Part shown: positions 2,963 through 20,330 of the stretch, piece by piece
How the letters are laid out: the number at the start of each line of letters is the position of its first letter
Numbering within the stretch: the first letter of the stretch is position 1
Virus record (IMG/VR): IMGVR_UViG_3300009128_000167
Location: 1 to 20,330 of that record
Source: a virus
Length of the DNA stretch: 20,330 nucleotides
Strand: one strand, 5' to 3'
Translations under genes and position numbers: made by a program
The notes under the pieces: generated by a model
Seen by the model: only the letters and a program-made list of their open reading frames with translations
Database searches by the model: none
Told to the model about the DNA's origin: nothing

Positions 2963-4204
2963 ATGAGGCAAAAGAAAAAGATTCTAATTCTGTCTGATCA
3001 CGCACTTTCATCTTCAGGCGTCGGGACGCAAACACGTCATTTAGTTAATGGACTGCTAGAGAAAAACGAGTGGACTTTTAGACAGTTTGGTGCAGCTATG
3101 AAACATGCTGATTATAAAACTGTCCATGTCAGTGATGATTTTGTTATTAAACCTATTGATGGGTTCGGAGACAGAAATTTACTTAGACTTACACTTGCTA
3201 CTGAAAAGCCAGATCTTATTTTTATTTTTACAGACCCACGTTTTTTTATTTGGTTGTGGGAGATGGAAGACGAAATTCATCAAGTCTGCCCAATAGCTTA
3301 TTGGCACGTCTGGGACAATGCTCCTTTTCCAAAATTTAATAAAACCCTTTACGATTCTACAGATACAATAAATTGTCATTCACATCTTACATATAGACTG
3401 CTGTCAGAGAATATGACTGATAAAAAACGCATTAACTTTATTCCACACGCTGTTCCAAAGAGTCTGTTTTTCAGGCTTAGTGATATTGAAATAAAAAATT
3501 ATAAATCAAGAGTATTAGGAAAAAATAGAGAAAATGATTTTGTAGTAATTTGGAACAATAGAAACGCAAGAAGAAAAAGACCCGGTGATTTGCTTGTCTC
3601 TTGGAAATCGTTTCTAGATAAAACGCAAAAAAAAGACGCACTTTTGATAATGCATACAGACCCTCTAGATAAAGAAGGTTCCAATCTTTACACATTATCT
3701 GAAGAATTAGGTATAAAAGAGAACGTTTATTTTTCAAGAGACAGATTAGAGTTTGAGAAAATAAACATTCTTTACAATATTTCAGATATCTGCATCAACA
3801 TTAGTTACGCCGAAGGCTTTGGACTCTCTACTTTAGAAGCAATGCAAGTCGGAACACCTATAATTGCAACCAAGACCGGCGGCCTAACTAGACAGATTAT
3901 TGATCACAGAGACGGAACTGAAAACGGAATTGCTCTCAATGTCGTATTAAAGACGATGTCTGGGTCTCAACAAGTTCCTTATATTTATGAAGACTTTTCC
4001 TCTATTGATGACATTTCTGATGCTCTTTTTACAGCGTATAACTGGACAAAAGAAGAAAAAGAGAAAATGTCAAAAAAGGTCGAAGACTACGTTGATTCTG
4101 AGTTTAATTTACAAACTACAGTTGATCACTGGCACAATTCATTGACTAACACAATAGACACTTGGAAAGACGACTACAAAGCATGGGATATTACAACATT
4201 ATGA
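2963..4204 (+). CDS. GT4-type glycosyltransferase
   Basis: The 413-residue protein shows a GT-B fold. The N-terminal domain starts with a strand (KILILSDHA) and a glycine-containing loop (GVGTQTRHL, 19-27). The C-terminal nucleotide-sugar domain has NARRKRPGDLL (201-211) and the GT4 signature EGFGLSTLEA (284-293), which gives the usual E-x7-E pair (E284, E292), followed by VGTPIIATKTGG. It should be a retaining glycosyltransferase using a nucleotide sugar. Its ATG directly follows the nuclease stop (TAAATG), so the two are probably translationally linked. A weak GGAG lies about 12 bases upstream (2947-2950). Its last bases overlap the next glycosyltransferase through ATGA. The acceptor is unknown. 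Confidence 0.85.
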   Translation: MRQKKKILILSDHALSSSGVGTQTRHLVNGLLEKNEWTFRQFGAAMKHADYKTVHVSDDFVIKPIDGFGDRNLLRLTLATEKPDLIFIFTDPRFFIWLWEMEDEIHQVCPIAYWHVWDNAPFPKFNKTLYDSTDTINCHSHLTYRLLSENMTDKKRINFIPHAVPKSLFFRLSDIEIKNYKSRVLGKNRENDFVVIWNNRNARRKRPGDLLVSWKSFLDKTQKKDALLIMHTDPLDKEGSNLYTLSEELGIKENVYFSRDRLEFEKINILYNISDICINISYAEGFGLSTLEAMQVGTPIIATKTGGLTRQIIDHRDGTENGIALNVVLKTMSGSQQVPYIYEDFSSIDDISDALFTAYNWTKEEKEKMSKKVEDYVDSEFNLQTTVDHWHNSLTNTIDTWKDDYKAWDITTL

Positions 4205-5376
4205 AAAAGAAAAACGTAGTTATTAGGGCACCGTTATTATCACAGTCCGGTTATGGGGTTCATTCAAGACAAATCGTAAAATGGCTCTTCAGTAGAGAAG
4301 ATTTTTCTACAACGTCGCAGGTTGTCAATTGGGGAAACACACCTTGGTTATTGAATCATGACGCTGAAGACGGTCTCATTGGCTCCATCTTAAACTCAAC
4401 TACAACAGGAAGAGACAATTTCGATATATCTTTTCAAGTTCAACTACCAAATGAATGGGATACAAGCTTAGCGAAATTTAACGTGGGAGTTACAGCGTTA
4501 GTAGAGACAGATAAATGCAATAAATCTTGGATAGAAAACATAAACAAAATGGATCTTGTTATTGTTCCATCAAAGTTTGCAAAAAAAACAGTCTATAACA
4601 CTGGAGTCGATATTACAACAAAAATAGTCGTAATAGGCGAGTCGTATCACGAGGCAATCGACAAAAACGTAGAGCAGACTGCAATTGATATTGATACTAA
4701 ATTTAATTTTCTTTTGTTTGGACAATTTACCGGGACTACTCCTACAACAGATAGAAAAAATCTGTTCAATACAATAAAATGGCTATGCGAAGAGTTTGAA
4801 AATGATAAAGATGTTGGGATTGTTTTTAAAACTAACTCAAGCAGAGGCACAAAAATTGACAAAGGTATAACAACAGGTTTAGTAAAAAGGCTTCTGAAAG
4901 AAGTAAGACGAGGAGAATACCCAAAAGTTCATCTACTTCACGGAAATATGCAACCATCAGAGGTAGCCTCATTATACAAACATAATTCAGTTAACGCGTT
5001 GATAACTGCTACACGAGGAGAAGGGTTTGGGTTACCCATATTAGAAGCAGCAGCTTCATCATTACCTATAATTGCCACAAATTGGTCTGGGCATCTTGAC
5101 TTTCTATCGCTCGGTCATTTTATAAAGCTTGATTACACACTTCAAGACGTTGATAAAAGAAAAATTGACAACAATATATTTGTAGATGGTGTAAAGTGGG
5201 CAGAAGTAGATGAAAATGACTTTAAGAAAAAAGTAAGAAACTTTTATAAAAACAGAAAAGGTGTTCAAGCCAAGTCAAACAAATTAGCTGAAAAAATAAA
5301 GCAAAATTATTCGTTCGAGTCAATAAAAACGAAGTATAATGAAATAACACAGAAAAATATTTTACAAAATGATTGA
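4201..5376 (+). CDS. GT4-type glycosyltransferase, second copy of the fold
   Basis: I place the start at the ATG at 4201, giving 391 residues and a four-base ATGA overlap with the preceding gene. An upstream in-frame TTG at 4162 would add 13 residues inside that gene and is less likely. The N-terminus (VVIRAPLLSQSGYGVHSRQ) has the glycine loop of GT-B enzymes. The C-terminal domain has DRKN (184-187) and the GT4 motif EGFGLPILEA (274-283), then LPIIATNWSG. It differs enough from its neighbour to suggest another sugar or acceptor. It overlaps the next gene by eight bases, so the cassette appears to be translationally coupled to the downstream membrane protein and sigma factor genes. The substrate is not deducible. 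Confidence 0.85.
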   Translation: MKKKNVVIRAPLLSQSGYGVHSRQIVKWLFSREDFSTTSQVVNWGNTPWLLNHDAEDGLIGSILNSTTTGRDNFDISFQVQLPNEWDTSLAKFNVGVTALVETDKCNKSWIENINKMDLVIVPSKFAKKTVYNTGVDITTKIVVIGESYHEAIDKNVEQTAIDIDTKFNFLLFGQFTGTTPTTDRKNLFNTIKWLCEEFENDKDVGIVFKTNSSRGTKIDKGITTGLVKRLLKEVRRGEYPKVHLLHGNMQPSEVASLYKHNSVNALITATRGEGFGLPILEAAASSLPIIATNWSGHLDFLSLGHFIKLDYTLQDVDKRKIDNNIFVDGVKWAEVDENDFKKKVRNFYKNRKGVQAKSNKLAEKIKQNYSFESIKTKYNEITQKNILQND

Positions 5377-8368: not shown

Positions 8369-8839
8369 ATGTTAAAATATAATTTCAAAAACGTTGGAAT
8401 AGAAAGAAATTCTGATGAATTAAAATCAAACAGCACGTTTGAAGCCTCTTATGGGATAAAAACGCCATTAAACAAAGGAACTGGCGTTATTTTTGACATG
8501 TCAACTGATTTTCGAAGTCAAATAAATGACAATCTTAGTAATCTGATAAAAACTAATCATGGCGAAAGATTGGGCTCATTCAATATAGGCGCCAATATTC
8601 AACCACTACTAACAGAGAAACTGTCAGAAGACGACTTCGCTCAAGCTGTAATGTCACGCATAAAGACAGCAGTATCTTTAAGTATGCCATACATAGAGCT
8701 ATCAGGTTTCGAATATACGCAAGGTAAGATTGACATAATAACAGGAGCAGCATCGGCTCATTTATCGATATCGTATTCGATACGAAGCGTTAACATAATA
8801 AATAAAAAACTTAGCGTAGTAATACAGCCAGTGAGTTAA
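8369..8839 (+). CDS. gp25: Baseplate wedge protein, gp25-like (W/lysozyme-like fold)
   Basis: At 156 residues it has the normal size for gp25-like proteins. The family hallmark is visible: an N-terminal strand region, then DNLSNLIKTNHGERL (54-68), corresponding to the conserved NLLxTxxGER segment. A helix (DDFAQAVMSRIKTAVSLSMP) and paired C-terminal strands complete the fold. Like T4 gp25 and phage P2 W it should sit at the core of the wedge, joining sheath start and gp6-like arms; it is structural despite the lysozyme-like name. GAGGG stands five bases before the ATG. An overlapping ATG at 8365 is out of frame and hits a stop after five codons. The next gene starts one base after its stop, which fits the gp25-gp6 pairing. 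Confidence 0.9.
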   Translation: MLKYNFKNVGIERNSDELKSNSTFEASYGIKTPLNKGTGVIFDMSTDFRSQINDNLSNLIKTNHGERLGSFNIGANIQPLLTEKLSEDDFAQAVMSRIKTAVSLSMPYIELSGFEYTQGKIDIITGAASAHLSISYSIRSVNIINKKLSVVIQPVS

Positions 8840-8840
8840 A

Positions 8841-10676
8841 ATGCAACAAAAATTAATAAACAACTTAACAAGAAAAAAAAAGAGAACATTTTATGGTCGT
8901 GACTTCGACGCACTTCGAACTGATCTTTTAAGTTACGCTACAACGTATTTCCCTGATTCTATTCAAGATTTTTCAGATGCCTCTGTGGGCGGACTGTTTC
9001 TTGACATGGCAGCGCATGTAGGCGATGTGATGTCATTCTACTTAGATCATCAGTTTAACGAGCTAGATATAAACACAGCTACACAAACAAAGAACATTGA
9101 AAAGCTTCTAAAATCAGCTGGAATAAAAAACAGATCATCGTCACCATCTATCGTTGAGGTAGATTTTTATTTGACTGTGCCTTCAACAACAGATATTAAC
9201 GATAATGTTGTTGTTGACCCAGATGTCTTACCTATTATATTAGCAGGGACAACAATGAAATCAAATTCGGGAATAAAATTCGAACTAATGGAAGATTTAG
9301 ATTTTTCAAAACAGATTTTTGACGAATACTTACACGAACGTTTTATAAATGTGGACGATCTCGACTCAGATTTAAATCCTAATTCTTATATAGTTAAAAT
9401 GAAAGGAATTTGTGTATCCGGAGAATCTAAAACAACAACAATCCCGGTTGGAGAATTTAAACAATTTAAAAAAATAACAATACAAGATGCTGATATTAAC
9501 GAAATATTAAGAGTAATAGACTCGTCTGGGAACGAATACTATGAAGTTGATTATTTGTCTCAAGATGTCGTCTTTAAAGCTGTGCAAAATAAAAGCTACG
9601 ATTATGATAAAGTTTCAGATAATTTAGAGATTCTTCCGGCGCCATACAGATTCACAAGAGAGTTTGACAGAAGTTCATCATTCACTAACTTAACATTTGG
9701 TAGCGGCAACGCAATGACTTTAGATACTGACTATATACCGGACCCAAGTGAATTTGCTCTCCCTATGTATGGAAAATCAGTTGTAAGTAGACAATCAATT
9801 GACCCAAATAACATGCTGTCAACATCAACTTTGGGTATGTCACCGTATAACACGAAGCTTACAATAGTCTATAGAAAGGGCGGGGGTCTAAACAACAATG
9901 TATCAGCTGAATCAATAAAAACAATTGAAAATCTAGAAATAACGTATAACAGAAACTCTTCTTCTTATAATAATTTTGCAATAAAGACATCACTAAATAT
10001 AAACAATGTAAACTCTTCAAAAGGTGGAGAAGACAAACCTACAATAAACGAATTAAGATATGAATATAAAGGCCATCAAAATTCTCAGTCTAGAATTGTT
10101 ACAAAAGGCGATCTTTTGACTAGAGTGTATACATTACCAACAAACTTCGGAAGAGTATTTAGAGCAGGGCTTTCAAATACAACTTCAAATCTATTTTCCA
10201 CCCAATTATTTATAATAAGCAGAGACGCTTCAGGAAAATTAGTTGCCTCTTCTGACAGTCTTAAAAAGAATCTTGAAGTATATTTGAATCAATATAGACT
10301 AATAACAGACGCTATTGATATTCTTGATGCTTTTGTTATTAATATCGGCGTTGAGTACGAGATAGTGACTGATGGAATTATACATAAAAGTATTATAGTC
10401 GCAGACATAAACAAAAAAATAAAATCATTTTTTGATATAAAAAAGTGGCAACTTGATATGCCGATAAATAGTACTGATCTTGAACTTATTATCAACAACG
10501 TTTCGGGAGTCATCTCGCTAAATTATTGTAAACTAATAAATAAGACAGGTGGAAGCTACAGCGCCCAAAGTATAGACATAGCTGCAAGCACTACGGGTAA
10601 ATTTTTAGTAGGACCACCTGGCTCAATATTCGAGTTAAAGAATTCATCTGACGATATTCAAGGATACGTGAAATAA
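8841..10676 (+). CDS. gp6: Baseplate wedge protein, gp6-like (J-family)
   Basis: The 611-residue length is close to T4 gp6 (about 660). The N-terminus is typical: YGRDFDALRTDLLSYA (18-33), a pattern SVGGLFLDMAAHVGDVMSFY (48-67), then a helix with TQTKNIEKLLKSAGIK. A beta-rich middle follows (about 100-430). The C-terminal part (about 467-570) contains DSLKKNLEVYLNQYRLITDA and INIGVEYEIV, the J/gp6 C-terminal dimerisation type region, and ends near ISLNYCKLIN. It should form the wedge dimers that make the inner baseplate ring and change shape on contraction. It overlaps the next ATG by one base (TAATG). The identification is strong. Confidence 0.88.
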   Translation: MQQKLINNLTRKKKRTFYGRDFDALRTDLLSYATTYFPDSIQDFSDASVGGLFLDMAAHVGDVMSFYLDHQFNELDINTATQTKNIEKLLKSAGIKNRSSSPSIVEVDFYLTVPSTTDINDNVVVDPDVLPIILAGTTMKSNSGIKFELMEDLDFSKQIFDEYLHERFINVDDLDSDLNPNSYIVKMKGICVSGESKTTTIPVGEFKQFKKITIQDADINEILRVIDSSGNEYYEVDYLSQDVVFKAVQNKSYDYDKVSDNLEILPAPYRFTREFDRSSSFTNLTFGSGNAMTLDTDYIPDPSEFALPMYGKSVVSRQSIDPNNMLSTSTLGMSPYNTKLTIVYRKGGGLNNNVSAESIKTIENLEITYNRNSSSYNNFAIKTSLNINNVNSSKGGEDKPTINELRYEYKGHQNSQSRIVTKGDLLTRVYTLPTNFGRVFRAGLSNTTSNLFSTQLFIISRDASGKLVASSDSLKKNLEVYLNQYRLITDAIDILDAFVINIGVEYEIVTDGIIHKSIIVADINKKIKSFFDIKKWQLDMPINSTDLELIINNVSGVISLNYCKLINKTGGSYSAQSIDIAASTTGKFLVGPPGSIFELKNSSDDIQGYVK

Positions 10677-11812
10677 TGTATAAAATAATACCGGCAACTG
10701 CTGATGCTTATATAACAAACAAAATACTTAACAAAACAACTCGAGCTACAGACGCCAACACTGGGCTTTCAAGCACTCTGGATATTTTTAAATTATATTC
10801 TGAAAACTCTTTTGATGGTGAAGCCAACCCGATAGAGCTGTCGAGGGCCCTGATTAAATTTGACCTTGATGATGTAATGGCACTCACACCAACAACACTA
10901 ACCGACTTTTCATGTGAATTACATATGTTTGACACATTCGGGGGACAAACAACACCATCGAATTTTACTCTACAGCTTTTCCCGCTTGCAAAAGAATTCA
11001 CTGAAGGAATGGGACGAGATGTAGAATCGTTTGATGATCTTGATGTCTGTAACTACACTATTTCATCTTATAACAGTTCAGGCCCCGGAAATATATTATG
11101 GGACACAGAGGGCGCCGACGCTGATGTAGATGATGTCCTGAAGACAGGTTACCCAGGAATGACTCAAGACTTCGCTCAAGGGACTGAAGATCTTGTTATT
11201 GACGTAACTGATGTAATTTCTGATATGATCGATGAAACAATTTCGAATTACGGGTTTAGACTTTCATTTATAGCCACTGAAGAAACAGATTCAAAAACAC
11301 GTTTTGTAAAGCGTTTTGTATCACGACACTCAACTGATAAAAATAAAACGCCAAGACTAATAATAAAATATAAAGATGCAATCGAATCTTCTACAGACGA
11401 CGTAAATTATACAAATTATCAAGCTACAATTCTCAATCTTCAAAAAGAATATAATCACTCTGATATCGTAAGACTTCACGTCTTTATTGAGGATAGAAAT
11501 TATAATCTTGTTGAGTCTTCAAAAGTACCTCTAAAAAACAAAGGCTTGCTTATAGGATCTTCGGACGTCGATGTGGGTGTATCAAGTAGTACATTGTGTT
11601 TCTCTATTGTCGATAAATCAAGCAACGATATTATAATTCCGTTTGACAAGACGGGAACCATTGTGTCGTTTGATGCAGATGAAATGTTCTTTAGTCTCGA
11701 TACAAATAATCTTACAAAAAATAATTCATACGAAATAAAATTCAGAATTTATGACAACACGTCGGGATTACAATATACTGTTGGTGAAGACTTCATATTT
11801 AGGGTAGTTTGA
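10676..11812 (+). CDS. Beta-sandwich structural protein with DNRLRE-like domain
   Basis: Residues about 1-232 of 378 resemble a DNRLRE/CBM96-type beta sandwich. It begins with IIPATADAYITNK and repeats strand patterns such as ELSRALIKFDLDDV and LTDFSCELHMFD. It also has the late features VIDVTDVISDMI, GFRLSFIATEETDSKTRFV and a closing PRLIIKYKDA, which these domains usually show as RLIVTY. Residues about 240-378 form a second, Ig-like beta region. In cellular proteins such domains are extracellular and often bind carbohydrate. In a baseplate cluster, between the gp6-like gene and a large gp7-like candidate, it is most likely a wedge-peripheral or fibre-attachment protein. There is no signal peptide, consistent with a virion part. 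AGGA (10661-10664) is 11 bases from the start. Confidence 0.7.
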   Translation: MYKIIPATADAYITNKILNKTTRATDANTGLSSTLDIFKLYSENSFDGEANPIELSRALIKFDLDDVMALTPTTLTDFSCELHMFDTFGGQTTPSNFTLQLFPLAKEFTEGMGRDVESFDDLDVCNYTISSYNSSGPGNILWDTEGADADVDDVLKTGYPGMTQDFAQGTEDLVIDVTDVISDMIDETISNYGFRLSFIATEETDSKTRFVKRFVSRHSTDKNKTPRLIIKYKDAIESSTDDVNYTNYQATILNLQKEYNHSDIVRLHVFIEDRNYNLVESSKVPLKNKGLLIGSSDVDVGVSSSTLCFSIVDKSSNDIIIPFDKTGTIVSFDADEMFFSLDTNNLTKNNSYEIKFRIYDNTSGLQYTVGEDFIFRVV

Positions 11813-11813
11813 T

Positions 11814-14800
11814 ATGACAATTTATACGAATTCTATAAGCAAATTATTCAACAATAAGTTGTTTGATGAGTTTCCAGAGTCAGACTTCTTTAAAGAGACG
11901 TTAAAGTCAATTTCATCTACTCAACAATTAAATCTTGATTGGTCAAAATTTGAAAATCATACATTTTTCAATTCAGCAGTCTCTAACGTAAATACAGCGT
12001 TTGACAAACTTGTCAATGGATACCCAATCGATGGAACAAAAAAAGAAACAATTGATTTTATTAACTCATTGACAGGATTTGAGAAATATGTTTTAGATAG
12101 TTTCCCAAAAAACACTGGATTTTTAGAGTTTGACAAAGCGCTCTCAAATTATATAAACGTAAAAGATATAAAGAATTCTGGAATAGTAATAAAAGAATCA
12201 TCACCAACAAAAGGCGAACGTGGGCTCAACCCTGAAAACAATTCATTTTCTATTGAGATGAAACTAAACCCAAATGGCGTTACAAACTTAAATCAAATAG
12301 TCTTTCAAAAACTCGAAAATACAAATATAGGATTTACAATTGCTTTAGAAGCGTCTGTTGATCTTACAACGTGTAATTTATTATTCATAGTAACTACAGC
12401 AGAAATGACTTCATATATTTCGGCACCCATAAAAAAATCAGAATGGAATCATGTTGTTGCTGTTTTCGACAGATCAGCCAGTGATTCAACAATATCAGTT
12501 ACAATCGATGGAACAAAGATAACGAACGATACAATTCTTGAGATGTTCGAAATATCCCCTACTACTAATTATTTAAAAATAGGAACCGGAAATACGACGA
12601 CATATCAAGTTGGCCTTGACTTCTCACCTGCTGAGACTTTTGATGGTTACATTGACGAGCTTAGATATTATCACAAAGCTTTAACGTGGAGCGAAATTGA
12701 ACCAAAAATAAACAAAGAGTTATTTCAAGATGATGATTTAATTCTCTATTTTAGATTCAATGAACCTTACGACGTTGAAGAGTCTGTAAATACACCTTCA
12801 GTAGTGATAGATAGTTCTGGGAACGGATATCATAGTATTGTCGATAATTTTACTCCATCATTAAGAGATAATTCACTGATCGACAATCCTATGCATTTAG
12901 AAGATGACAGATATTTTCCTATCTTATTTCCAAACAACACGTTAGTAAAAGAATTTAACAATTCGCTGTTAACTGATGCTATTTTATATGATGATAATAA
13001 CCCGAATTTAATAACAAAACTAGTGCCCCCGCATTATTTTTTAGATGGCATGAAAGACACAAATTCAGATGAAAAAGGGTTCGGGTCAATTCTTGACGCA
13101 TATAAGGGAGAAAAACCAAACGAAGGAAAACTTGGTACTGCTCAACTTTTAACGTCTATGTTACTAATTTGGGGCAAGTTTTTTGACGAGATCAAAATAG
13201 TAACTGATAATTTTTCAAATTTAATAAACGTTGAATACGAAGATGAAGAAGCAACTATAAATACTTTTTTGACTTTTGTAGCTAAATATTATGGCTTTGA
13301 ATTGCCCACAATATTCACAGAAGCTTCATGGGAGCAGTTTTCTGACGGGTCAAATTTAGGAATTGAGACCGACAAATCTAGCGCTGCACTGTCATATATT
13401 CAGTCACAAATTTGGCGTCGAATTTTAGTAAACTTAAAAGACATATACAAATCAAAAGGAACAATAAATAGCATAAAGTCGTTTCTTCTTTCAGCCGGAG
13501 TTGACCCAAACTCACTTCTTAGACTTAGAGAGTATGGCGGAAATCTTAAAAATGACATAAAATATTCAAGAGAAGAAAAAATAGAAACCTCTACAATGCT
13601 TGATTTTTCTGGATCGCTCGGGACTGCAGTCGTAGCCGATATGCCTTTTATACAATCAGGGTTTCTTTCGGGTTCAAGAATAGAGACTGGGTTTCCAGAA
13701 ATTCAAGGAAATATGATCAGTATTGACACATTTTATTCACCTGGTGATGATATACCACATGCTGATCAACAGTCGAGACATGGCATATCTGATCACGAAT
13801 CAGATGGATTATATTCGTCAGGGTCGTTCTTATACGAAGGAATTTATTCATTCCCAGTTGATCGAGAATACGAAGAATTTCAAAGTCTCTTGCGAATAAA
13901 CTCTTCAGGCACATCTCAGGATAACGTTATCGTTAATATAGTTGCTCAATCTTCGTCACTTGATCCTGAAGATAATAAAATCAAGTGCTTTTTGACTCCT
14001 GCTGATAATTTGTTACCAACAAAAGTTGAGCTTGTTCTGACTGGAGTCAATATATTTGATGGAAAAAAATGGAACGTATGCGTCGGAAGAGACAGATTTG
14101 ATGAAATAGAGAATAACGTATCATCATCATATTACTTAAAAGCGACACGCCAAATGTTTGGTGATATAAAAGAGTTTCATCAGACAAGTGCCCTGTACGA
14201 AGAGTTGTTTCATGGATCTGATTCATTTGCAACTATAGACGCAACAGATAACGTCAATGGTCATTTCTTTACAATTGGAAAACAAACGTTCGGCGTTCCT
14301 TCGTCTAATAAGTTTTTGAATAGCTTTGGTTCTAGTTCCGAAGAAATGACAACAACGTTTGAGGGGAAAGTTGGGCATTTAAGAATGTGGTCAAAATCGT
14401 TTGATGACAAAGATTGGAAAGAACACGTTCGAAATTATACATCACTGGGTGTAAAATCACCTTTTGACAATTTCAACTTCAATACCCATGCTTCAGGTTC
14501 GTTTCAGAGACTGAGGGTTGATGCATCAACAGATCAATCTGACACTGTTGCTTCTGCTCTTGGTGAAATATCTATATTTGATTATTCACAAAACGAAAAA
14601 CATTTGTTAGGGACTGGGTTTGAACCAGAAAACACTGTCATAAAATCGGAAAATTTCTATTTTAATATCATATCACCAAAATTCGACCTTCTTCAGACAA
14701 ATAACAAAGTTAGAGCTCGCGGGCTTCAAGATGAAACGAATGTAGAAAACTCATTGAATGCAATTCAAGGTCTCGTGCATGAAGTCCCACTGTTTGAAAA

Positions 14801-15236
14801 GTTTTTTGATGACCCTCGTTTTGCTGTTGAATTCTCTTCTATAGACGCACTCAACGAAGATATTATAAAAATGTTTAGCTCTCTTGATGTAATAAACGAT
14901 ATACTGGGACAACCAAATTTAATGTTTGCAGACTCTTATATTGATCTTGAAAATCTTCAAAAGATCTATTTTAACAGACTAACTGACAAACTTGACATCG
15001 ACGCTTATATGGGAATTTTTAAGTGGTTCGACGATGCTTATACTAAGATAATAAGGCAACTCTTGCCAAAAAAGACAAAGTATATGGGAACAAACTTTAT
15101 AATTGAGTCACATATGCTCGAGAGAAATAGGTTCAAATATTTGTTCGATGACATTTATATGAACTCATCAGAAAGAGATAATTCAAGGGGCAATATTTTT
15201 CTGTCTCAAATAGCTGGAACAGTTAAAAAGTTTTAA
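11814..15236 (+). CDS. Large baseplate wedge protein with two LamG-like jellyrolls (gp7-like candidate)
   Basis: The 1140-residue protein is mosaic. Residues 1-120 form a helical N-terminus. Residues about 135-320 are a LamG/concanavalin-like jellyroll: SFSIEMKLNP, SEWNHVVAVFD (209-219), FDGYIDELRYYHKALTWSEI (276-295), then LILYFRFNE. Residues about 440-575 are helical with the tail-protein segment IWRRILVNLKDIYKSKGT (533-550) and LLRLREYGG, seen in many phage baseplate/tail proteins. A second jellyroll-like part spans about 600-880, with KKWNVCVGRD and EGKVGHLRMWSKSF. The C-terminus (about 965-1115) has DPRFAVEFSSIDALNEDI, IYFNRLTDK and GTNFIIESHMLERNRFKY, matching a recurring conserved tail of large phage structural proteins as I recall it. 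Position after the gp6-like gene and size suggest a gp7-like wedge. AGGGTA (11801-11806) provides the SD. Confidence 0.7.
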   Translation: MTIYTNSISKLFNNKLFDEFPESDFFKETLKSISSTQQLNLDWSKFENHTFFNSAVSNVNTAFDKLVNGYPIDGTKKETIDFINSLTGFEKYVLDSFPKNTGFLEFDKALSNYINVKDIKNSGIVIKESSPTKGERGLNPENNSFSIEMKLNPNGVTNLNQIVFQKLENTNIGFTIALEASVDLTTCNLLFIVTTAEMTSYISAPIKKSEWNHVVAVFDRSASDSTISVTIDGTKITNDTILEMFEISPTTNYLKIGTGNTTTYQVGLDFSPAETFDGYIDELRYYHKALTWSEIEPKINKELFQDDDLILYFRFNEPYDVEESVNTPSVVIDSSGNGYHSIVDNFTPSLRDNSLIDNPMHLEDDRYFPILFPNNTLVKEFNNSLLTDAILYDDNNPNLITKLVPPHYFLDGMKDTNSDEKGFGSILDAYKGEKPNEGKLGTAQLLTSMLLIWGKFFDEIKIVTDNFSNLINVEYEDEEATINTFLTFVAKYYGFELPTIFTEASWEQFSDGSNLGIETDKSSAALSYIQSQIWRRILVNLKDIYKSKGTINSIKSFLLSAGVDPNSLLRLREYGGNLKNDIKYSREEKIETSTMLDFSGSLGTAVVADMPFIQSGFLSGSRIETGFPEIQGNMISIDTFYSPGDDIPHADQQSRHGISDHESDGLYSSGSFLYEGIYSFPVDREYEEFQSLLRINSSGTSQDNVIVNIVAQSSSLDPEDNKIKCFLTPADNLLPTKVELVLTGVNIFDGKKWNVCVGRDRFDEIENNVSSSYYLKATRQMFGDIKEFHQTSALYEELFHGSDSFATIDATDNVNGHFFTIGKQTFGVPSSNKFLNSFGSSSEEMTTTFEGKVGHLRMWSKSFDDKDWKEHVRNYTSLGVKSPFDNFNFNTHASGSFQRLRVDASTDQSDTVASALGEISIFDYSQNEKHLLGTGFEPENTVIKSENFYFNIISPKFDLLQTNNKVRARGLQDETNVENSLNAIQGLVHEVPLFEKFFDDPRFAVEFSSIDALNEDIIKMFSSLDVINDILGQPNLMFADSYIDLENLQKIYFNRLTDKLDIDAYMGIFKWFDDAYTKIIRQLLPKKTKYMGTNFIIESHMLERNRFKYLFDDIYMNSSERDNSRGNIFLSQIAGTVKKF

Positions 15237-15245
15237 GGAAAGATA

Positions 15246-17120
15246 ATGGCTTATACAATACGAAAAGATCCGGGAGTTTTAGTCCCTTATGAAGACGATA
15301 CTGGTGAAAATAAAAGGACTGTTTCAAGAATAGAAGAGTCATTTAGCGTTGCGAGCCTAACGTCTGACGAATATTCTGATTTCGAAACTCAAACAAAAAC
15401 AATAACTAACAAACAAGTATTGACGTCTGGGATCGCGTTATCTTATGATGAGATAACATCAGCCGACGTAGTCTTTCCAAACACTCAAAGAAAAAGAAAA
15501 CAAGATGAACCTTACGATCTTACTAAAGCTTTTAAGACAAAAAACAAAAAAATATACTCAAGAAGTGCAGCCGCTGCTCTAAAACTACTAACTCGGGTTA
15601 GCGGGACAACTGTTTCTGGGATAGACACAACAACTACACATACAGAGACAGGTGCGTCGTTCTTTTACACGTCAACTGATATTCCTTTCTTACCTGCTCC
15701 CGGAAAGCGAATGAACGAAGACGTAAGATCGATAATTGTAAGCTCTCCAGATGCGACAAAATATCAGTATATAAAAACAGATAGTCCATCTTTGACAATT
15801 GGAGCTGCCACTGATAAGCAGTTTTCAATTTCAGTATGGTTTTATCTAAATAGTGAAAAAGAGACAATTCTTGTTACAAAAGGTCTCACAACTGGAACTC
15901 AAGAGTATGAACTAAAAGTTAACAGTGATATGACTATATCATTTAAGACAATCGACACTTCGCTAAACTCTTATATAATAACATCATCACTAAGTGTAAC
16001 TCCAAACATATGGAATCACGTAGTAATATCATCAACTGGCAACGACTGGACAGACGTCGACGCACTGACAAAAACATTTTATAAGCTTTACATTAACAAA
16101 TCGATAGACAAAGGTTTCTCAACAGCTGTTGCAGCGTACGACGCAACTGGGACACAAACTTCAGCTGAGTTATTGTATGTTGGTCACAACGGATCTGGTG
16201 ATGATAATAATATCGATGGCCTAATTGCTGAAGTCGCTATTTGGACTGATTATTATCTAAAGAAAAGAGAAGTCGCTGCTATTTACGATGCAGCTACAAA
16301 GTCACTAATGAAAATGGACACAACAAGCGTAGACCCTTTTCGCCAAGGTGTTTCAGTTACGACTAACAAATATAAAAACGAATCACTACTCTATAAACTT
16401 TCTTCAAACAATCAACGTAATGTAAATTATCCCGACCATTTTGTTGCCCAAAGAGAGTTCGGACAACCTTTCGGGTTCGATGGAGATGTCCCTTTCAATG
16501 ACGTCGAAGGCAGATTTTCAACTTACGATCTCACTACAATGGAGATTTTAGACACAAACACAGTTCAGTATCCTGTTATTTATGACAACAATATTGTTGA
16601 ACCCAAACGTGAAAACGGAGTTCTTGAACCACTTGCTATAAGAGAGACAGTATTCAACAATTCGGTTGACTCACCCTTTCAAGCCCACAGAATCTCTGGA
16701 GAGCTATGCGGAGGAAACTCAAACCCAGAGTTCGGAACTATTTTTATAACAAACGATATCAAAAGAAAAGAAGATCAACAAAAAATAGAAAACGTAATGA
16801 TTAACAGTGACTGTTATTTTGATGCCGAAGAAAAGGCGTTTGATAGTGTATACGACGAAGCAACATTAAAGTACATAACATTTTCAGTTCCAGGGTTCGT
16901 GTCAGACGTCCCACAAGAAGAAGTGACCTTCGATGATACAATTGATCTAACGGCAAACGAATTAATAACAGAAACAGAGTCGATAACATCATTATTAATG
17001 TCTTCTCCAGATAGCTCAAGGTCAAACTATTTAATAAAATCGGCACAATCAGGGTTCATCTATGGCAACAACCCAGAAGGGACTGACTCTTTAGCTTACG
17101 GCGGGTTACTCAGAAAATAA
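15246..17120 (+). CDS. LamG-domain virion surface protein
   Basis: This 624-residue protein has a low-complexity, Thr/Ser-rich N-terminal part (1-165). A LamG-type jellyroll follows at about 172-350: FSISVWFYLN (193-202), IWNHVVISS (255-263), FYKLYINKS (278-286) and the terminal helix-strand signature IDGLIAEVAIWTDYYLKKRE (323-342). The remaining C-terminal part (about 360-624) contains GRFSTYDLTTMEI and ends SLAYGGLLRK; I do not recognise its function. No signal peptide or transmembrane segment is present. Following the wedge genes it is probably a baseplate-rim, fibre or decoration protein that contacts host-surface sugar. The ATG lies nine bases after the preceding stop, with AAGGAAAG overlapping that stop. 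Confidence 0.7.
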   Translation: MAYTIRKDPGVLVPYEDDTGENKRTVSRIEESFSVASLTSDEYSDFETQTKTITNKQVLTSGIALSYDEITSADVVFPNTQRKRKQDEPYDLTKAFKTKNKKIYSRSAAAALKLLTRVSGTTVSGIDTTTTHTETGASFFYTSTDIPFLPAPGKRMNEDVRSIIVSSPDATKYQYIKTDSPSLTIGAATDKQFSISVWFYLNSEKETILVTKGLTTGTQEYELKVNSDMTISFKTIDTSLNSYIITSSLSVTPNIWNHVVISSTGNDWTDVDALTKTFYKLYINKSIDKGFSTAVAAYDATGTQTSAELLYVGHNGSGDDNNIDGLIAEVAIWTDYYLKKREVAAIYDAATKSLMKMDTTSVDPFRQGVSVTTNKYKNESLLYKLSSNNQRNVNYPDHFVAQREFGQPFGFDGDVPFNDVEGRFSTYDLTTMEILDTNTVQYPVIYDNNIVEPKRENGVLEPLAIRETVFNNSVDSPFQAHRISGELCGGNSNPEFGTIFITNDIKRKEDQQKIENVMINSDCYFDAEEKAFDSVYDEATLKYITFSVPGFVSDVPQEEVTFDDTIDLTANELITETESITSLLMSSPDSSRSNYLIKSAQSGFIYGNNPEGTDSLAYGGLLRK

Positions 17121-17168
17121 AAAGTGTTATAATTATAGATGTATCTCTATTAAGTTACGGGAAGTTAA
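17121..17168 (+). promoter_or_regulatory. Short gap with possible promoter before the last gene
   Basis: A TATAAT hexamer lies at 17128-17133 with only a poor -35 (GTTACT at 17105-17110, three of six, 17-base spacer). GTTATAATTAT (17126-17136) is close to GTTATATTTAT at 8343-8353. GGGAAG (17159-17164) is the ribosome binding site, four bases from the ATG at 17169. No terminator hairpin is visible, so read-through from the upstream genes is likely. Confidence 0.3.
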
Positions 17169-20100
17169 ATGAGCGAAACAGTAAAAAGTATATTTCTTGA
17201 CAACACAACTGCTGAAAGTGTCAATATTGTTGATCACGATCTAACAAAAGACTGGCAGTCTATTTATGGGACAAGAAACCCGAACATAACAAACCCAGGT
17301 CTTGTTGCATACTGGCGCTTTTTTGACGACAACGTGACACCACTAACGACAAATGACGCTTCTGGGAACAGTCACGACATAACTTGGACAGACGAACCAG
17401 ATTTATCAAGTGAAACTCCGTTTAAAAACAAAAACACTACTATAGCTTTTAATGGAACAAGTGATGTTGGAACAATAACAAATCCCTCAGATAACTCACT
17501 TTCTTTTGGAGATGGTACAGAGGACTCTGAGTTCAGTATAAGCTTTTGGGCAAAACCAGACTTTTCAGATTCTAGTAAAACATATTACAATATAATAAAC
17601 AAAGTAAGTTCTCTTGATAAAGAATATGCAGTTTATTTTTATAACGGCGACGGCGATTCTGATGCCACAATAACTTTAAAATGTTATGATGAGTCAGAGA
17701 CACCGCCTAACGGATGGGAACGTAGACATATTATTGAAGATATGGGTATAGTGGGAGAAAATTGGTATAATATTACTTTTACTTCAAAAGGAAGTACTGG
17801 TACAAATCCTGAAATTGCTGAAGGAATTAAGATATATGTAAATGGTGAAGAGAAAAGTTCATATTATTACTATTACAACGATTACGTAGCAATGGAACAG
17901 ACAACAGCTGATATTACAATTGGCGGCTGGGCAGGAGCAGGTCAATACTTTAAAGGTAACTTATCTGAGGTCGCCATCTGGAACCGTGAGCTTACGGCAG
18001 TCGAGGCCAAAGCGCTACACGACGTCAAATTTGGTGCTATCTCGAACTCATACACATCCTACTCACCAAGACTTGCTCTTCGTGACAAGGACAACCAACG
18101 TGGTCAATATCCGACAGTAAAAAGAGTTGGTGACAAAGACAGATCGGGCGCATTCAACGTACAATTCAACGATGAAAACACTGTGTTGTTCGACGAAAAC
18201 GTTGCAACATACTTGCCCGTTGGGTTACAATCATCAGACACAAAGCTCAGAGAAATAGATAAAAAAATTGAAATACCCTCTGGGAGAGTCTCAAGATCGC
18301 TTGCTGGAGAAAGCTTCAACATCGTAACTGACAGTGAAGACATTTCAGCATACAACGATGAGCTCGATAAAACTCAAGACACTGACTTCTACAATGAGGG
18401 AACAAACAGAGATATTTACCCAGGGTTCTCTTCACCACTAAATAGCAAGACTTCGTTCACGTTTGACATAACAGCCACAGAAGAACAGTATGTATTTAGG
18501 CAGACCGGGTTCTTAGCGCCAAACAATGGTTATACGGGCGATACGTTTGGAGGAGAAGATAAAACTGGGTTTTGTTATTATTCGTTTGAAAACGGAACAT
18601 GGGATGAAAAAGGCAGACCTTATTATGGCGCCCCAGACAGTGACGCAGATAATTTAAAGTTTTTTGGTCCAAACACATTCCCGTCACAATTCACGGGCGG
18701 AAACAGCTTCTTCGCCAAACATGGCAACCCAAGCGCAAACAAAGCGTCTGGAGAAATTGCATATTCGTCGTTGAAAGATCTAGGATATGATAAAATAGGG
18801 ATGCCAACGATTTCCAACTTTGCTCCTTGGGCTGAACAATATCACGCAACAAATGAACAGTCGTTAAAAGTTAATGATTTTTTATCTTCACCTTTTCTTT
18901 TAGAAAAAATTCGAATTTCTCTCCCTGTTTACGCAAGACAGATCATAGATGGCGTCGGTTCTCCCGGTGACAGAACACGTGACATGAAAAATTATATGGC
19001 TTTTTTATACCTTCAAAGAAGAACGAAAGAATACGAAACCGATTCATCGGAAGATGCAAAAAAATCAGAACGTATAATAATTGCCAGCGCGTCATTATGT
19101 TTTTATAATCCAAATGTACTCACTTGGGCAGATCGATCTGTTGAAGTTATTGACTTTGCTCCTATTCACGAACCTAATTTTGTCCACGCTTTTGATATAA
19201 TTAACGATGGAACTGTAGAAATAGGCGAGTTTGAAGACACAATTGATTTAGAATTCACACCTTCAGTGTCTAATGGTGGGCAGTCAGTAATGGCGATTCC
19301 TAGACTTGACATAAATTCAGCAGATCCATATAATGATTCTGTTGCAGAAACAGTTGTTGTTGACAGTAACTCAAGAAATTATTTTTCATTCTGGCCAGGA
19401 GGTTCATCAATAGAGAGATTCAGTGTAAAAGACACAGACGGGATAGAGCTTGGTGCGGAATATTCAGGAGGAACACTTTCTGACTTAAAATCTACGTATT
19501 ATATCACACCCGCTCCGTTTGACAATTTTGATTATGACAACTCATTTAAACAAAAGTTTCAAAAGTTACAACTAACTAAACCAAATACAAGACATTTGAA
19601 AAACTATGGTACAAAAAAGACAAATGTTACTCCTGAATTAGATGATAGCGTTAATCTCTATAGAGTTACACAACCCTATTATGTTGAAACTTTTTCTCAC
19701 AAAACACCTTTTGTCTTACTTCCTGGTGATGAGTTAGTTCTTGGCATCGAACAATGTGTTGGAGACAGAATAAAAACAGGGGCTGGGTCTGACGTTGATT
19801 CCGACATCGTAACAATAGCAGATGAAGCAAATCACAACACTATTACCAGTATCAACTTAGGGCTCGATTCGTATCATTCTCTCTCTGGGTCACTCCTGAA
19901 GATCAAAACCGATCCAGCTTCAATGACGCTTTACGGCTCACTAATAAAAGAAAATAAAGAACATCACGACACGATGAATCAAGATTTGACATCGAACTCA
20001 GTTCACGAGGCTATCTACGGACCACACGTTCTTGACCAATTCGAAATAGAGCCTATATCGATGTACGCAGGAACCTTCTCAGACGAATATGTTAGTGGGT

Positions 20101-20330
20101 CAATGTTCTCTGGGATGAATGACACACTTGAGATACACTCAGACGAAGGTCTTGATATAAACTTAACAGACACTAGATTTGTATCAAAAACAGTCACAGC
20201 CGGAGACGTATCTGATGATTGGTCGTTGACTCGTTTTAACACGTTCGTTGATGAAAAAGAGAGATACTATGACACGCTGTTACCAGACGTATTTGAATAT
20301 TTGTCGAATATAAGCGAAAATTACAGTTTA
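17169..20330 (+). CDS. Very large LamG-domain virion protein, 3' end beyond the window
   Basis: I translated this frame from ATG at 17169 to the last base: it is open for 1054 codons with no stop, so the gene is cut by the window edge. Residues about 44-286 are a LamG-type jellyroll: LVAYWRFFDD (45-54), FSISFWAKPD (122-131), ENWYNITFTSKG, IKIYVNGEEK (220-229) and FKGNLSEVAIWNRELTAVEA (261-280). A five-tyrosine run sits at 232-236. Residues about 540-1054 form a long region with FLLEKIRISLPVYARQ, PYYVETFSHKTPFVLLPGDE, TLYGSLIKENKEHHDTMNQ and VHEAIYGPHVLDQFEIE. This resembles an uncharacterised module of large phage structural proteins as I recall it. GGGAAG four bases upstream supports the start. 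It is the third LamG carrier in a row, probably a fibre-like or peripheral baseplate protein. Confidence 0.75.
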   Translation, partial: MSETVKSIFLDNTTAESVNIVDHDLTKDWQSIYGTRNPNITNPGLVAYWRFFDDNVTPLTTNDASGNSHDITWTDEPDLSSETPFKNKNTTIAFNGTSDVGTITNPSDNSLSFGDGTEDSEFSISFWAKPDFSDSSKTYYNIINKVSSLDKEYAVYFYNGDGDSDATITLKCYDESETPPNGWERRHIIEDMGIVGENWYNITFTSKGSTGTNPEIAEGIKIYVNGEEKSSYYYYYNDYVAMEQTTADITIGGWAGAGQYFKGNLSEVAIWNRELTAVEAKALHDVKFGAISNSYTSYSPRLALRDKDNQRGQYPTVKRVGDKDRSGAFNVQFNDENTVLFDENVATYLPVGLQSSDTKLREIDKKIEIPSGRVSRSLAGESFNIVTDSEDISAYNDELDKTQDTDFYNEGTNRDIYPGFSSPLNSKTSFTFDITATEEQYVFRQTGFLAPNNGYTGDTFGGEDKTGFCYYSFENGTWDEKGRPYYGAPDSDADNLKFFGPNTFPSQFTGGNSFFAKHGNPSANKASGEIAYSSLKDLGYDKIGMPTISNFAPWAEQYHATNEQSLKVNDFLSSPFLLEKIRISLPVYARQIIDGVGSPGDRTRDMKNYMAFLYLQRRTKEYETDSSEDAKKSERIIIASASLCFYNPNVLTWADRSVEVIDFAPIHEPNFVHAFDIINDGTVEIGEFEDTIDLEFTPSVSNGGQSVMAIPRLDINSADPYNDSVAETVVVDSNSRNYFSFWPGGSSIERFSVKDTDGIELGAEYSGGTLSDLKSTYYITPAPFDNFDYDNSFKQKFQKLQLTKPNTRHLKNYGTKKTNVTPELDDSVNLYRVTQPYYVETFSHKTPFVLLPGDELVLGIEQCVGDRIKTGAGSDVDSDIVTIADEANHNTITSINLGLDSYHSLSGSLLKIKTDPASMTLYGSLIKENKEHHDTMNQDLTSNSVHEAIYGPHVLDQFEIEPISMYAGTFSDEYVSGSMFSGMNDTLEIHSDEGLDINLTDTRFVSKTVTAGDVSDDWSLTRFNTFVDEKERYYDTLLPDVFEYLSNISENYSL

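Follow-up and report, generated by a model that had tools for sequence, protein, structure and literature searches.

LamG-type jellyrolls in three consecutive genes of a phage baseplate region: a fixed pair in a predicted wedge-type protein beside two variable slots

How does one lectin-type domain come to lie in three adjacent phage genes whose products otherwise differ? The question is raised by IMG/VR virus record IMGVR_UViG_3300009128_000167, analyzed here over 20,330 bases (positions 1 to 20,330; "the window"), the right half of which encodes p156, a gp6-like protein, p378, and the three proteins of interest, T1, T2, and T3. A preliminary description of the sequence had noted a LamG-type jellyroll in each of the three, had suggested that one adhesion domain was shuffled into different virion proteins, and had mentioned tandem duplication as a further possibility. 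Our comparisons favor, as the probable account, a different division of roles: T1 as a wedge-type protein with fixed jellyrolls, and T2 and T3 as slots that exchange LamG modules drawn from a common phage pool. The features concerned were as follows.

11814..15236, + strand: T1, 1,140 amino acids (aa), predicted wedge-type baseplate protein with two jellyrolls
12111..12908, + strand: T1 jellyroll 1 (aa 100-365), LamG/pentraxin type, from PF13385 and an AlphaFold2 model
12924..13778, + strand: T1 core 1 (aa 371-655), with a KSKGT..SI motif, homologous to the proteins encoded after gp6 (post-gp6 proteins) in phages Mel-JY01 and immuto
13779..14648, + strand: T1 jellyroll 2 (aa 656-945), diverged, from hhalign and the model
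14649..15233, + strand: T1 core 2 (aa 946-1140), C-terminal, well conserved
15246..17120, + strand: T2, 624 aa
15717..16295, + strand: T2 LamG domain (aa 158-350), PF13385, limited to few phages
16299..17117, + strand: T2 core (aa 352-624), ending in GTDSLAFGGL, conserved directly downstream of T1
17169..20330, + strand: T3, at least 1,054 aa, open at the window's end
17298..18032, + strand: T3 LamG domain, site A (aa 44-288), PF13385
18033..20330, + strand: T3 core (aa 289 onward), in which the related locus L007 has a second LamG domain (site B) and the window has none

The open reading frames of 1,140, 624, and at least 1,054 aa each gave one Pfam match to Laminin_G_3 (PF13385), as the preliminary description had led us to expect: aa 140-295 in T1 (60.5 bits, E = 2.7e-16), aa 173-335 in T2 (54.7 bits, E = 1.7e-14), and aa 118-279 in T3 (56.2 bits, E = 5.5e-15). 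These scores are about twice the curated cut-off of the family (27.6 bits), and with E-values from 2.7e-16 to 1.7e-14 the matches are not due to chance. A LamG search of the whole record returned exactly three places, one each in T1, T2, and T3, all above the cut-off. The LamG signatures named earlier were likewise present in the translations: FSIEM, WNHVV, and FDGYIDELRYY in T1; FSISVW, WNHVV, and IDGLIAEVAIW in T2; and FSISFW, WYNIT, and FKGNLSEVAIW in T3. The core profiles of T1, T2, and T3 matched different proteins, except in genes L057 and L076, in which T2 and T3 are fused; judged by sequence, the same domain stands beside nonhomologous remainders, the arrangement by which domain mosaicism in phages is recognized. 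The picture of a shared domain in otherwise different proteins of a baseplate cluster thus stands, with one amendment: a second jellyroll in T1 (aa 656-945) had been missed, and since T1 holds this diverged copy, the jellyrolls in the window number four.

T1 was followed through the best 80 of 171 related loci (designated L plus a number). Our own LamG profile placed jellyroll 1 at the same position of T1 in 80/80, a figure somewhat biased because one of the six T1 search peptides, IKKSEWNH, falls within this jellyroll. Because the profile had been iterated on the same loci, LamG counts were cross-checked with Pfam, which recovered jellyroll 1 in 39 of 41 T1 proteins (the window plus 40 of the 80 relatives). 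Jellyroll 2 was detected by the iterated profile alone, in 79/80 loci, the remaining one (L009) ending before that point. Jellyroll 1 is therefore an old, fixed part of T1 and not, as had been proposed, a domain shuffled in on this time scale.

The AlphaFold2 model of T1 (overall predicted local distance difference test [pLDDT] score, 70.0; predicted template modeling score, 0.46) gives jellyroll 1 a concanavalin A-like jellyroll fold: the modeled domain aligned with dimethylformamidase (6lvb) at Z = 20.3 and a root-mean-square deviation of 3.4 over 213 residues, with PAPP-A at Z = 20, and with PTX3 at Z = 17. A circular permutation of jellyroll 1 (a LamG-like N-terminal strand pattern had seemed to follow the domain) was dropped because aa 100-365 of the model align in order with PAPP-A and dimethylformamidase. 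Jellyroll 2 is modeled as an extended series of strands (pLDDT, mostly 65-92); tandem LG domains of neurexin and laminin align as a pair with the T1 model, and the profile of jellyroll 2 matched LamG domains from outside T1 by hhalign (probability, 72.5; E = 3.3e-5), the corresponding values for the T1 cores being 0.1 and 0.34. Proteins of uncultured marine viruses include full-length structural relatives of T1 (best match in BFVD, E = 9.8e-53).

Two cultured phages give a view of T1 from outside this group. The T1 core matched the post-gp6 protein of Microcystis phage Mel-JY01 (PP395634, 167764-171774; hmmsearch, 4.7e-29; hhalign, E = 3.3e-21) and that of Flavobacterium phage immuto (MW353176, 85576-89373; hmmsearch, 1.8e-17), both lying in the same neighborhood and both annotated as hypothetical. 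Only 91 residues separate the core pieces that flank jellyroll 1 in Mel-JY01, versus about 315 in the profile, and about 40 separate those flanking jellyroll 2 in immuto, versus about 390. By this short spacing, jellyroll 1 is missing from Mel-JY01, and the stretch with jellyroll 2 is missing from immuto; from these spacings the T1 jellyrolls look like additions to an older core that predate the diversification of the window's group. The T1 protein of L008 (L008:10001-14026; 1,341 aa) has extra stretches of about 100 aa around jellyroll 2 relative to that of the window, and distant T1-like proteins of at least 1,900 aa with two LamG domains occur in L093, L107, and L120, their first LamG domains forming a clade of their own (support, 100/99) apart from T1 jellyroll 1.

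T2 behaves differently. In nearly all loci its core is encoded immediately after T1, mostly in a protein of about 275-330 aa that leaves no room for a LamG domain. Pfam found LamG in 6 of 66 T2 proteins, and our own profile found it in 6 of 63 phages, a distribution that requires at least 4 changes on the tree of T1 cores, gains and losses being indistinguishable in such counts for T2 and T3 alike. The sister loci L006 and L091 (Shimodaira-Hasegawa-like approximate likelihood ratio test, 97, in the T1-core tree) differ in this very respect, T2 of L006 carrying a LamG domain and T2 of L091 (273 aa) lacking one. The position of the domain relative to the T2 core also differs among the window's group, L101, and L112. 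A scan of viral contigs with the T2 LamG domain matched only the four known T2 loci. The T2 model was too poor to use (pLDDT, 49.3), its best PDB match being a pentraxin (E = 0.021), and T2 showed no significant similarity to the HTVC008M protein at 36520-37908, annotated as a baseplate wedge subunit (E = 0.93). Further T2 architectures were seen in single loci. At its C terminus, T2 of L018 (L018:13316-14902) is extended by about 200 aa, a part that had no Pfam match and by eye resembles another concanavalin A-type fold; a single reading frame joins the T2 and T3 cores in L057 (L057:12097-16125; 1,342 aa) and in L076 (L076:10381-14325; 1,314 aa); and L022 has two T2-core and two T3-core genes in a row (L022:13723-15461 and 15507-21332).

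T3 is the second variable slot. LamG was present at any site in 13 of 42 T3 proteins by Pfam (42 of 72 candidates) and in 13 of 52 phages by our own profile, which requires at least 7 changes on the T1-core tree. The backbone tree comprised 82 rows, was built by a quick method, and carried a long-branch warning for L085, L107, L039, L105, and L081. The gp6 protein of L007 is 80% identical to that of the window, yet of these two only L007 has a LamG domain at site B of T3, its complete T3 (1,697 aa) carrying this second domain at a place where the window's T3 has none. Scans with the T3 LamG domain returned 44 loci among viral contigs and 1 relative among genome contigs. Besides L022, several loci have two adjacent genes with the T3 core. 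The gene after T3 in L007 (L007:20461-21369) encodes a 302-aa tail-fiber-like protein with a Peptidase_S74 endosialidase chaperone.

Where the window's jellyrolls came from was addressed by ranking phmmer matches in a set of 252 LamG domains taken from loci of viruses and bacteria, the bacterial background coming from one phylum. The window's T1 jellyroll had no match to that of T2 or T3 at E ≤ 1. Outside its own orthologues, the T2 jellyroll was closest to L095 (39.3 bits) and L105/L106 (38.2 bits), with the window's T3 ranking 35th of 118 matches (16.9 bits); the T3 jellyroll was closest to L094 (72.0 bits) and L093 (68.0 bits), with the window's T2 ranking 65th of 125 (16.1 bits). Aligned directly, the T2 and T3 jellyrolls were 25.7% identical (E = 4e-6), T1 versus either was not significant, and all pairs fell below the identity of at least 50% that marks recent mosaicism.

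Kinship was also assessed in a tree of 94 LamG domains. Not included in it are T1 jellyroll 2 and near-identical or repeated loci (L001-L004, L086-L090, L092, L097, L106, and L124), together with 8 of the 14 T1 rows selected, 10 of the 24 domains from bacteria, and 25 of the 69 classed as "other." T1 jellyroll 1 formed one clade (100/99). The window's T2 domain grouped with those of T2 in L006-L008 (99/92), and this clade joined T3 domains of L054 and L072 (99/82) and then the T2 domain of L101 (95/88), whereas the window's T3 site A domain formed a clade with T3 domains of L091 and L007 (100/97). A further clade (98/91) mixed the second jellyrolls of the T1-like proteins of L108 and L120 with T2 of L112, T3 of L006, L007, L011, L012, and L101, and a domain of unassigned context from L104. 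Because supported clades thus mix T1-like, T2, and T3 proteins, we read the LamG modules as a pool shared across slots. A single clade of all three window jellyroll groups was weakly rejected (approximately unbiased [AU] test, P = 0.032). The preliminary description had itself named a phylogeny of the jellyrolls as the deciding check, with domains no closer to one another than to those of unrelated proteins speaking against local shuffling, and the ranking and tree gave that outcome for shuffling within this genome: the window's jellyrolls are not each other's closest kin, and domains of other phages outscore the T2-T3 pair (16-17 bits). What survives of the shuffling idea is movement of LamG between slots across related phages.

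Taken together, T1, T2, and T3 would belong to the outer baseplate or the tail tip of a large contractile-tailed phage, uncultured and aquatic. T1, following gp6, would be of wedge type and would have two LamG/pentraxin-type jellyrolls among its constant components; T2 and T3 would be structural proteins in their own right, with conserved cores that serve as acceptor slots, in which LamG modules may be gained, lost, or replaced through recombination with other phages. The window's T2 and T3 jellyrolls would then derive from the common phage LamG pool and not from T1 or from each other. T1-T3 would sit on the outside of the baseplate, where the jellyrolls may hold host-surface glycans or proteins; the multivalent glycan binding proposed in the preliminary description is plausible. 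Extra modules might broaden or alter the range of targets open to the baseplate ahead of sheath contraction.

The most serious competitor, which we nonetheless judge rather unlikely, is that the jellyrolls are structural, bracing the wedge or packing the proteins together without binding a host receptor. LamG folds bind proteins too, as in the laminin, neurexin, and pentraxin families, and the matches to laminin and neurexin are to folds that also serve as protein-protein modules; moreover, residence of jellyroll 1 at one place in 80/80 relatives is unusual for a receptor-binding module. Against this, jellyroll 1 was conserved less than core 1 in 754 of 820 pairs of T1 proteins, as expected of a surface-facing part, and between the window and L007 it was 60% identical, the N-terminal part and both cores reaching 79-91%. 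For T2 and T3 the structural explanation fares worse: most phages have no LamG domain in these proteins, so those copies cannot be needed for assembly.

A lower probability attaches to old, independent acquisitions that were inherited with many losses and little exchange from slot to slot. The T3 site A jellyrolls of the window, L091, and L007, united in one clade, fit such inheritance, and a loss may account for the T2 difference between L091 and L006, the change counts being blind to direction; but the supported clades that mix T1-like, T2, and T3 slots (98/91 and 99/82) and the differing place of LamG relative to the T2 core in the window, L101, and L112 do not. Least probable is local duplication, in which one jellyroll would have been copied from T1 into T2 and T3 in this lineage and then diverged, since for all that three adjacent genes share one domain family, that the T2 and T3 jellyrolls align at E = 4e-6, and that a clade of these two alone was not rejected (AU test, P = 0.142), the absence of any T1 match to either at E ≤ 1 largely refutes it for T1, T2 and T3 rank behind other phages' proteins for one another, and the clade of all three was weakly rejected.

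Several observations weigh against a wedge-type T1 with fixed jellyrolls beside exchanging slots. The baseplate location of T1-T3 is drawn from gene context and sequence, no ligand site was identified in the jellyrolls, and a module present without exception in 80/80 phages might just as well serve as a brace. Long branches occur in the LamG tree, 46 of its 88 inner branches are open, its bootstrap had not settled, and it leaves the pairing of T2 with T3 unrejected, as noted. The G+C content of the domains (33-38%, versus 35.5% overall) is ordinary and so bears no trace of recent import, and the profiles may have missed diverged T2 or T3 jellyrolls in other phages, in which case the gains would be fewer. 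Finally, by hhalign with single sequences, T1 was not significantly similar to T4 gp7 (E = 0.15) or P2 gpI (E = 0.17), nor did it match VrlC of HTVC008M (E = 0.28; one VrlC compared) or the post-gp6 protein of that phage (E = 0.097); T4 gp6, compared as a control, gave E = 0.11, and the values for P2 gpI and the HTVC008M post-gp6 protein were no better.

What likeness there is to these wedge proteins lies in position and in one motif. One gene, p378, separates the gp6 homologue from T1, and P2 gpI and the HTVC008M post-gp6 protein both aligned to the KGT..SI motif at one and the same position of T1 (E, 0.1-0.2), whereas the T4 gp7 alignment fell elsewhere. Weak Pfam matches to Tail_P2_I occurred in 4 of 41 T1 proteins (best, 0.028) and to Gp7_helical in 1 of 41. 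By position and motif, T1 thus resembles a gp7/gpI wedge protein without significant sequence similarity to one. In marine T4-like phages VrlC is said to replace T4 gp7 (PMC7029224); T1 showed no significant similarity to the VrlC of HTVC008M.

The surroundings are those of a baseplate region, in a contractile-tailed phage that has T4-like components. The genes for the gp25-like protein, the gp6-like protein, p378, T1, T2, and T3 follow one another in this order both in the window and in most of its relatives, and the relatives lie on IMG/VR contigs of up to 320 kb. Upstream of T1 are the following.

8369..8839, + strand: p156, weakly gp25-like baseplate wedge protein (Pfam GPW_gp25, E = 0.0049, below the cut-off; PHROG 261, baseplate wedge, E = 0.044)
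8841..10676, + strand: gp6-like baseplate wedge protein, 611 aa (PHROG 219, baseplate wedge subunit, E = 1e-6)
10676..11812, + strand: p378, unnamed, between gp6 and T1, order kept in relatives

The gp6-like protein was 31.6% identical, over 99% of its length, to the annotated baseplate wedge protein of immuto, which with Mel-JY01 (31.0%) is the nearest cultured relative by gp6, so that from gp6 alone bacteria near Flavobacterium or freshwater cyanobacteria would be a tentative guess at the hosts; tblastn with gp6 matched 6 of 50,697 phage records, and in the same records T1, T2, and T3 had no match at E = 1e-5.

Parts of this arrangement have precedents. Likeness to the Laminin_G_3/concanavalin A-like lectin superfamily is expressed in the scores and in the alignment of the T1 model with pentraxins, PAPP-A, and dimethylformamidase; unlike typical members, the window's domains are set in predicted baseplate proteins. 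Consecutive LamG genes, concanavalin-type baseplate domains, and domain shuffling in receptor-binding and baseplate proteins are already published. Pelagimyophages and cyanomyophages carry carbohydrate-binding domains, including concanavalin A, in unidentified structural proteins of the baseplate operon (PMC7029224). Pseudomonas phage pPa_SNUABM_DT01, of another phage group than the window's, has five LamG proteins, three of them numbered consecutively (gp001-003), for which its authors suggested receptor binding or an accessory surface role (PMC8541153); the text consulted gives no history of its modules. Smug et al. (2023) found domains of receptor-binding and baseplate proteins over-represented in recent mosaicism (PMC10684548); the likeness lies in a shared domain beside an unrelated remainder, whereas the window pairs are far below 50% identity and the main text contains none of the words "laminin," "concanavalin," "jelly," or "lectin." Within literature coverage that extended to few subscription journals and to no bioRxiv preprints, we found no paper on LamG in a wedge-type baseplate protein, nor on a fixed LamG jellyroll pair in such a protein beside two exchanging slots. 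The locus is a new instance of the known phage habit of module exchange, which in phage tails has mostly been described for fibers and spikes. With a lectin-type fold fixed in T1 and mobile in T2 and T3 across dozens of uncultured phages, the two states can be compared side by side, and if the T2 and T3 modules bind host surfaces, they offer a clue, readable from sequence, to what these phages hold on to. It is a tentative and doubtful generalization that widespread uncultured phages keep a permanent LamG pair in a wedge-type protein beside gp6 and use the next two genes as sockets for exchangeable LamG modules; if true, receptor recognition would lie partly in the body of the baseplate, in fixed and swappable layers beyond fibers and spikes, with the fixed pair as a possible direct link between docking and contraction of the sheath.

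Neighboring genes add a few observations. The p378 protein of the window and of L010, L012, L036, and L045 lacks a stretch of about 140 aa that is present in the versions of more distant relatives (about 500 aa), so that domain gain or loss extends to this neighbor of T1. The N-terminal part of p378 resembles a DNRLRE-type carbohydrate-binding domain; Pfam gave no match. Farther left in the window are a late-sigma-factor-like gene (PHROG 234, E = 1.1e-4) and a PD-(D/E)XK nuclease. Upstream of the baseplate genes the window also has three genes of glycosyltransferase-like products (positions 213-2090, 2963-4204, and 4162-5376); in pelagimyophages, glycosyltransferases have been noted in the host-recognition island (PMC7029224).

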